Positions 14,422 to 15,884 of a DNA stretch of 64,000 bases are shown piece by piece. The stretch's first letter is position 1; the number at the start of each line of letters is the position of its first letter. The translations under genes and the position numbers were made by a program. Source of the DNA: Actinocrinis puniceicyclus (GTDB lineage: Bacteria > Actinomycetota > Actinomycetes > Streptomycetales > Catenulisporaceae); NCBI RefSeq assembly GCF_018283645.1, contig NZ_JAGSXH010000002.1, positions 62,001-126,000 of the forward strand, written 5' to 3'. The notes below the pieces were generated by a model. That model saw only the letters and a program-made list of their open reading frames with translations. It did not search any database and was not told where the DNA came from.

Positions 14422-14445
14422 GCAGAAGAAATGCGGGTGATCACC

Positions 14446-14655
14446 GTGGCGGCCAAGGACAGCGGCGGGCAGGAGCGCGCCTCCAAGCAGAGCGAGCAGG
14501 TCGACGATGAACTCGTCGACGAGACCGGCGACTTGAAGGAGCGTCACGCGAAGCTCTCCGAGGACGTCGACGACGTCCTGGACGAGATCGACGAGGTCCT
14601 GGAGACGGACGCGGAGAGCTTCGTCCGCTCGTTCGTGCAGAAGGGCGGTCAATGA
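14446..14655 (+). CDS. pup: prokaryotic ubiquitin-like protein Pup
   Basis: A 69-residue, acidic, largely disordered tag protein. The helix that binds Arc and PafA/Dop includes residues 38-58 (core D43-E53, DVLDEIDEVLE), and the C-terminus is FVRSFVQKGGQ. It ends in Gln, so Dop must deamidate it before PafA ligates it to substrate lysines. GTG 14446 is chosen because the product then begins VAAKDSGG, matching the MATKD-type start of Streptomyces Pup; ATG 14431 would add five residues and has only a weak purine tract. It precedes the endonuclease-like remnant and prcBA on the same strand. Confidence 0.95.
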   Translation: MAAKDSGGQERASKQSEQVDDELVDETGDLKERHAKLSEDVDDVLDEIDEVLETDAESFVRSFVQKGGQ

Positions 14656-14725
14656 CCTGCGGTTCGGTCATCGCCGCCGGCGATCACGACGCGGATGAGG
14701 CCGGCATGACGCAACTCGCGGACTG

Positions 14726-14986
14726 GTGAGGATCGGCGGCGGCCTTGGCGGGTGCGCGCGGATTCCACGTGCGCCGACGTCACGCGCCCGGGCCAAAGCT
14801 TTCGCGGCGCTGCTCGCCGAGCAGGACGGCAAACGCCTGATCCGCGAGCGGCCCGGTCCGGAACACGCCGACCGCGACCACCGGGCGGGTAAGGTACGAG
14901 GCATCCTGCGCTTCAGCTGTGACCAAGGGCTCGGCAACTTCCGGGACGACATACGCAGTCTGATCCGCGCGGTCAACTATTTCTGA
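14726..14986 (+). pseudogene. decayed or repurposed endonuclease-VII-like (HNH/zinc) ORF
   Basis: An 86-residue ORF whose C-terminal 55 residues align by eye with recombination-endonuclease-VII proteins: LLAEQ, a PEHxDxDH block, GKVRGIL and a CxxGLGNFRDD end. Three of four expected zinc cysteines are arginine (positions 37, 40, 62; only C65 remains), and the first His of the DHDH motif is R50. All four codons are CGC, one transition from TGC or CAC. The frame and stop are intact. As I recall, an endonuclease VII gene sits between pup and prcB in Streptomyces, so this is probably its vertically inherited, catalytically dead version. The N-terminal 25 residues may not be coding; the start is uncertain. 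Confidence 0.55.
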
Positions 14987-14996
14987 GAGGGAGCTC

Positions 14997-15884
14997 GTGG
15001 AAGGCCAAGGGGCAGGGCGGTTTCCAGGACGGGCGGCCGGGATCGGCGGCGGCCTGATGGGTGGCGCCTTCATGCAATCCGGTACGTCCTCGTTCACCGA
15101 GTTCCTCGCGGCGTACAACCCCGAGTATCTGCCGGGTCGCCGGATGGCCGCGCTCGGTGCGCCGGGCGGCGCGGTGCCTCTCGACGTGCCGCACGGCACC
15201 ACCATCGTGGCGCTCACCTTCCCCGGCGGGGTGCTGATGGCCGGTGACCGGCGCGCGACCGCGGGGAACATGATCGCGCAGCGGGACATCGAGAAGGTCT
15301 TCCCCGCGGACGAGTACTCCGTCGTCGGCATCGCGGGCACGGCCGGCATCGCGGTCGAGATGGTCAAGCTCTTCCAGGTCGAGCTGGAGCACTACGAGAA
15401 GATCGAGGGCGTGGAGCTGTCCCTGGACGGCAAGGCCAACCGGCTGGCCACCATGATCCGCGGGAACCTGGGCCTGGCCATGCAGGGCCTGGCGGTGGTG
15501 CCGCTGTTCGCCGGGTACGACCTTGAGACCGGCGAGAGCCGGATCTTCAGCTACGACCCGGTGGGCGGACAGTACCCGGAGCACGGCTTCCACTCGGTGG
15601 GCTCGGGTTCGGTCTTCGCCCGCGGCGCGCTCAAGAAGCTCTACCGCTCCGACCTGGACGTCCGAGGAGCGGCCACGGCGGCCATTCAGGCGCTCTACGA
15701 CGCGGCCGACGACGATTCGGCCACCGGCGGTCCGGACATGACCCGCCGCATCTACCCGGTGATCGCCGCGGTGACCGAGGAGGGCTACCGCCGGCTGCCC
15801 GAGGACGAGGTCTCCGAACTGGTTCACGAGGTCGTCGACGCGAGGCACCGCCAGCCCGACGGACCGCAGGCCCCGCTGCGCTAG
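14997..15884 (+). CDS. prcB: 20S proteasome beta subunit
   Basis: A 295-residue precursor of the catalytic subunit. A 67-residue propeptide ends at HG before T68, the N-terminal threonine nucleophile after self-cleavage (HG|TTIVAL). D84 and K100 correspond to mature Asp17 and Lys33 of the active site, and SVGSGS supplies the C-terminal catalytic serine region. GTG 14997 has a GAGGGAG site just upstream and lies 10 bases after the endonuclease-like ORF, so the two are probably cotranscribed. It is followed 45 bases later by prcA, with which it forms the alpha7-beta7-beta7-alpha7 barrel. Confidence 0.97.

Follow-up and report, generated by a model that had tools for sequence, protein, structure and literature searches.

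An endonuclease VII-like reading frame between pup and prcB

We analysed a stretch of 64,000 nucleotides from Actinocrinis puniceicyclus (the window), in which a short open reading frame lies between two genes of the proteasome locus. The frame occupies positions 14726–14986 of the forward strand, begins with GTG, ends with TGA and encodes 86 amino acids. Upstream of it is pup (14431–14655, forward strand), encoding the 74-residue prokaryotic ubiquitin-like protein (Pfam Pup, 87.3 bits), and downstream is prcB (14997–15884, forward strand), encoding the proteasome beta subunit from a GTG start (Pfam Proteasome, 132.1 bits). By PrcB, the closest named relative of the window organism is Actinospica durhamensis (84%); a search for nearer relatives that would allow a dN/dS comparison yielded none.

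An earlier note, made from the letters of the window, had aligned the frame by eye with endonuclease VII (EndoVII) proteins, and profile and pairwise comparisons bear this out. The frame is matched by Pfam Endonuclease_7 (PF02945) at 38.5 bits with an E-value of 1.1e-9, above the family cut-off of 23.6, and its best local alignment is 55.6% over 63 amino acids. Its location between pup and prcB, on the same strand, is that of a family of EndoVII genes at this junction. The match is confined to profile positions 40–79 of 82. The frame corresponds to about the 3′ third of a gene of approximately 200 codons, and the N-terminal zinc-ribbon half (approximately 110 residues) is missing. What remains is an eroded 3′ part at approximately 14789–14983 of the forward strand. 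The preservation of surrounding residues stated in the earlier note applies to residues ~22–86 only; residues 1–~21 show no homology. Base composition divides the frame in a similar place: codons 1–26 have a flat GC content by codon position, whereas codons 27–86 are coding-like (0.75/0.45/0.82), which implies either that decay is recent or that some protein constraint is left. The frame stops 10 nt short of prcB and lacks the +1-frame overlap with prcB seen in Streptomyces. No second EndoVII copy or intact paralogue was found elsewhere in the genome of the window organism.

Reference columns for the metal-binding and catalytic residues were taken from a set of 36 intact EndoVII domains, nearly all of which lie at pup–prcB junctions in other genomes. 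Across this set, cysteine in the columns of residues 37, 40 and 62 and histidine in that of residue 50 are 100% invariant, with majority codons TGC, TGC, TGC and CAC, respectively. All four codons are CGC in the window, each one transition away from the majority codon, and the four arginine substitutions described previously are thus correct. In phage T4 EndoVII numbering, C37R (14834–14836), C40R (14843–14845) and C62R (14909–14911) fall on the zinc ligands C23, C26 and C58, and H50R (14873–14875) falls on H41, the catalytic histidine (PMC6083498). A fifth substitution had been overlooked: N66D (14921–14923, AAC to GAC) lies in the column of the metal ligand N62. All five are on the forward strand. 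In T4 EndoVII, N62D is recorded as inactive (PMC6083498), and PDB sequences of the T4 enzyme include both N and D at this position.

In total, five of the eight zinc and catalytic residues of the window frame are changed; D49, H52 and C65 are kept. Only C65 is left of the four zinc cysteines, which form two CxxC pairs, and in the catalytic and metal-binding set (D40, H41, H43 and N62 in T4) D49 and H52 are retained, with H50R and N66D changed. The window frame departs from the conserved residue in 7 columns out of 22, compared with 0–2 for the intact genes (36 domains). As read from its sequence, the frame is by descent an EndoVII of the pup–prcB junction and is not classed as a nuclease, because its defining residues fail. 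A dead nuclease, one of two options put forward in the earlier note, is supported by the changed residues, the absent zinc-ribbon half, the deviating columns and the lack of any other copy.

The second option was a retained non-catalytic protein, DNA-binding or regulatory, serving in the proteasome operon. The open frame and the coding-like composition of residues 27–86 speak for such a protein, as does the observation that the T4 mutants N62D and H41T are inactive yet still bind DNA (PMC6083498). Against it, DNA binding is lost in T4 C23S, C61S and the C26S/C58S double mutant (PMC6083498), and only one of the four cysteines is left in the window frame. The frame also has no N-terminal zinc ribbons, residues 1–~21 are non-homologous, and the conserved columns deviate far beyond those of any intact gene. 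The frame and its stop codon are indeed preserved, as the earlier note stated, but their value as evidence of use does not hold: a stop-free run of at least 86 codons occurs in 79% of simulated intervals of matching composition, and we rejected the open frame as a sign of use because a run of that length is expected by chance. We regard a retained non-catalytic protein as very improbable. The relic protein appears to be non-functional and is probably not made.

Intact, relic and absent genes at the junction

The pup–prcB junction was compared across 58 genomes of the same order, the window included. A full-length gene is present in 16 genomes, a relic in 25, and 17 have nothing between pup and prcB. 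The full-length gene encodes approximately 196–208 amino acids, with CxxC pairs at the N-terminus of the protein. The pup–prcB gap measures 508–576 nt with an intact gene, 130–550 nt with a relic and 50–171 nt when empty; it is 341 nt in the window. Homologues in other actinomycetes do therefore share this locus, a point on which the earlier note had staked its reading. Sequencing error, which it had also raised, cannot account for the missing N-terminal half, nor for the recurrence of this decay across dozens of further genomes.

An intact EndoVII gene occurs at pup–prcB in other families of the class as well, which indicates an old arrangement and repeated loss of the gene. A prcB–prcA tree of 55 rows (the window plus 54 named genomes) requires at least 18 changes of state among intact, relic and none. 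The 3′ tail of the intact Streptomyces endoVII gene, ~19 codons long, runs into the start of prcB in the +1 frame (for example in L054 and L105), and because of this overlap the tail survives where the gene is gone (G027 and G053).

Several further features of the family were noted. Two EndoVII domains stand in tandem in the junction gene of one family of the class (G154, G164, G183, G243, G282; L126, L131, L133). In Actinomadura macrotermitis (L213), pup and prcB are 1392 nt apart, far more than elsewhere, and an intact EndoVII domain is encoded between them. Three near full-length copies (G019, also L102; L195; L146) are missing the ligand pattern or the open frame and appear to be early stages of decay. 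Four endoVII-less Streptomyces-type genomes (G027, G030, G039 and G053) have a GC-rich inverted repeat just 3′ of pup and upstream of the conserved element described below, which is possibly the pup terminator. Intact endoVII alleles look mosaic when G047 is compared with G014/G037 and G029/G031, and endoVII identity tracks prcB identity less closely (rho 0.40) than pup identity does (0.66). The lower correlation and the mosaic alleles hint at exchange between species; homing or mobility of the junction nuclease is suggested only.

We found no description of an EndoVII gene at the proteasome locus in the literature searched, outside which most subscription papers lie, and a search of papers on SCO1644–SCO1646 likewise yielded no report of such a gene.

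Decay of the frame and a conserved DNA element within it

The earlier note had proposed that loss in the window frame is focused on the metal-binding residues. Decay rates were measured at codon positions 1 and 2 in 23 Streptomyces-type relics aligned to 16 intact genes, in fixed columns in which small insertions are invisible. The changed relic cells number 75 of 362 (20.7%) for ligand codons and 222 of 1076 (20.6%) for the remaining conserved codons, so the proposed focus finds no support. We rejected selective loss of the ligands, through toxicity or neofunctionalisation, on these equal rates. The enrichment of ligand changes in the window alone has a Fisher p of 0.017–0.052 depending on the cut-off, and weakens to a non-significant p = 0.17 when only AT sites are counted (5 of 9 ligand sites changed versus 2 of 10 others).

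The direction of change is toward GC. All seven window changes at columns conserved at 90% or more run from AT to GC, as do 206 of the 297 changes in the relics. Cysteine TGC, histidine CAC and asparagine AAC need A or T at codon positions 1–2, and an unconstrained copy in a GC-rich genome will therefore drift to CGC and GAC. Similar changes occur in other relics, for example C26 to arginine in G019. Lengths also drift: the distance from the conserved element to prcB differs from that of the intact genes in 11 of the 23 Streptomyces-type relics, and most of these differences shift the reading frame.

A short segment of the relic does not follow this pattern. A 20-nt conserved element, delimited by eye in the alignment, lies at 14887–14906 of the forward strand, where the window form CGGGTAAGGTACGAGGCATC aligns to CGGGTARGGTCCGWGGCRTA. 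In its 15-nt core, which encodes G-R/K-V-R-G, 4 of the 299 relic cells are changed, compared with ~21% at conserved positions 1–2 elsewhere; within relics of this gene, the core thus changes ~15 times less than the codons beside it. Because the relic genomes are related, the counts do not represent independent events; the contrast between element and flank was made within the same genomes. The intact genes carry the same signal at the level of DNA. In the 16 Streptomyces-type intact genes, 8 of 9 element codons are synonymously invariant versus 2 of 35 elsewhere (p = 2e-6), and mean synonymous entropy is 0.09 bits in the element versus 0.85 bits elsewhere. The codons GTA, AGG, CGA and GGT, all found in the element, are uncommon in such genomes.

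The element also outlasts the gene. In a first set of endoVII-less Streptomyces-type genomes, GGTANNNT is kept at the same place in five of five, three of them with an exact GGTARGGTNCG, and the GGTANNNT site is also present in two of three endoVII-less genomes of Actinospica type. Among the named Streptomycetaceae without endoVII, 17 of 18 keep the element (partly read from printed sequences): 13 have GGTARGGTNC, one has TAATGTCC, and three Kitasatospora-type genomes have GGGTAGGGTGCG. The only one of the 18 without it is a Streptacidiphilus with a 10-nt gap. The numbered and named genome sets share some genomes and are not fully independent. Catenulispora-type intervals contain CTAGGGTCGC, as judged by eye. 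As background, GGTARGGTNCG has no match in 251,544 strand-bases. Where other families of the class have an intact gene, the corresponding codons mostly do not form TANNNT, and the element thus appears to be specific to this order.

These observations bear on whether the frame is a plain pseudogene with no retained function, its 3′ part left over for want of time and its motif incidental. Decay is clearly under way, the GC content by codon position is still coding-like and the open frame is expected by chance, all of which suit a plain pseudogene. The ~15-fold lower rate of change in the element than in neighbouring codons does not, nor does the persistence of the element where all other traces of the gene are gone, and we consider this explanation quite unlikely. 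The feature that has been retained is a DNA element, and the retained protein role offered in the earlier note finds no support here.

A candidate promoter for prcBA

The element contains TAAGGT (14890–14895, forward strand), a candidate −10 hexamer with GG directly upstream. It fits the TANNNT −10 motif of 80% of mapped Streptomyces coelicolor transcription starts (PMC4895711) as a motif match only. The Streptomyces HrdB-type promoter consensus combines this −10 with a −35 of NTGACC (PMC4895711), and a G or GG preceding the −10 is reported to stabilise holoenzyme binding (PMC6344877). Here GGG stands directly before TARGGT, and in relics a purine mostly follows 7 nt after it. The putative transcription start in the window is the A at 14903 (forward strand), 7 nt after TAAGGT, at an aligned position that is mostly G or A in relics. 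A weak candidate −35, CCGACC (14868–14873, forward strand), agrees with 4 of the 5 specified bases of NTGACC at a 16-nt spacing, though it is not conserved as such; elsewhere the −35 region is loosely GTGGAY-like and variable. In the window the hexamer precedes the start codon of prcB by 107 nt; the distance is 105 nt in Streptomyces, as in each of the 15 intact genes that could be measured. A probable prcB ribosome-binding site, GAGAGGGAG (14985–14993, forward strand), read from the sequence, overlaps the stop codon of the frame. No published transcript start for prcB in these genomes was found in the main texts searched.

We infer that the conserved element is the −10 and start region of a prcBA promoter, an assignment that draws on motif, spacing and conservation. 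The frame could instead be a dead relic whose element acts as an operator or as an RNA-level signal for prcB, such as a leader structure or a processing site. Conservation that extends past the hexamer (CGGGTARGGTCCGWGGCRTA) would suit such a signal, as would the empty result of a generic sigma-70 scan of 14600–15050, which found no promoter, as expected for the actinobacterial TANNNT motif. An Rfam search found no structured RNA family at the locus, and GG-TANNNT with a purine 7 nt downstream resembles a Streptomyces housekeeping promoter; an operator or RNA signal is, in our judgement, unlikely.

Overall, we think it likely that the frame is a dead EndoVII relic with a 3′ end kept as the −10 and start region of the prcBA promoter and as the prcB ribosome-binding site. 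A nuclease gene of the EndoVII family (beta-beta-alpha-Me, Hpy99I-like) would once have been whole between pup and prcB. Its former G-K-V-R-G codons would carry the −10 (GGG-TARGGT) and the start site for prcBA, and its last codons the prcB ribosome-binding site. In Streptomycetales, selection would keep this short control DNA while the surrounding frame drifts from AT to GC and cysteine and histidine codons become CGC arginine. The 3′ part of the relic would still be present because it doubles as control DNA for the proteasome operon. More tentatively, the prcBA promoter may have arisen in the nuclease codons and so permitted many independent losses with pieces kept, and the nuclease may cycle through gain, decay and loss like homing endonucleases, with alleles exchanged; we hold this wider scenario to be possible but rather doubtful.

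Pseudogenes are well known, as are promoters within genes. We found no description in the literature searched of what is proposed here, namely a promoter in the codons of one gene that would outlive that gene through many independent losses, at the proteasome locus. If the proposal is correct, the small "conserved hypothetical" or "EndoVII" reading frames at pup–prcB in many Streptomycetales are not genes and are not to be mistaken for proteasome partners. prcBA would be driven by a separate promoter that does not depend on pup and is placed to the base, which bears on the separate setting of proteasome and pupylation levels. The locus would also provide a clean, replicated case of the codons of one gene becoming the promoter of another and outliving the first. 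It raises the question of why an EndoVII nuclease occupies the proteasome locus across much of the class and is so readily lost.

Among known systems, phage T4 endonuclease VII (PF02945) has a homologous zinc and beta-beta-alpha-Me core, and by alignment N66D of the window frame corresponds to the inactive N62D. The window frame differs in lacking three of four zinc cysteines and the counterparts of H41 and N62, and T4 EndoVII is a phage Holliday-junction resolvase. Among solved structures, the closest to the intact junction protein is that of the restriction endonuclease Hpy99I (3fc3, 3gox), which aligns over residues 65–178 (E 1.1e-7), better than T4 EndoVII does; by comparison, the zinc-ribbon part at the N-terminus is missing from the window relic. 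The homing endonuclease F-CphI shares the EndoVII catalytic motif, and the corresponding mutations abolish its cleavage (PMC6083498); it is mobile, intron-linked and from a cyanophage, whereas the junction EndoVII is a proteasome-operon gene. With Streptomyces HrdB-type promoters (PMC4895711), the window and its relatives share GGG-TARGGT, placed ~105 nt before prcB and followed after 7 nt by a purine. The candidate site differs from these promoters in being embedded in coding or formerly coding sequence, with a weak −35 and a putative start position.
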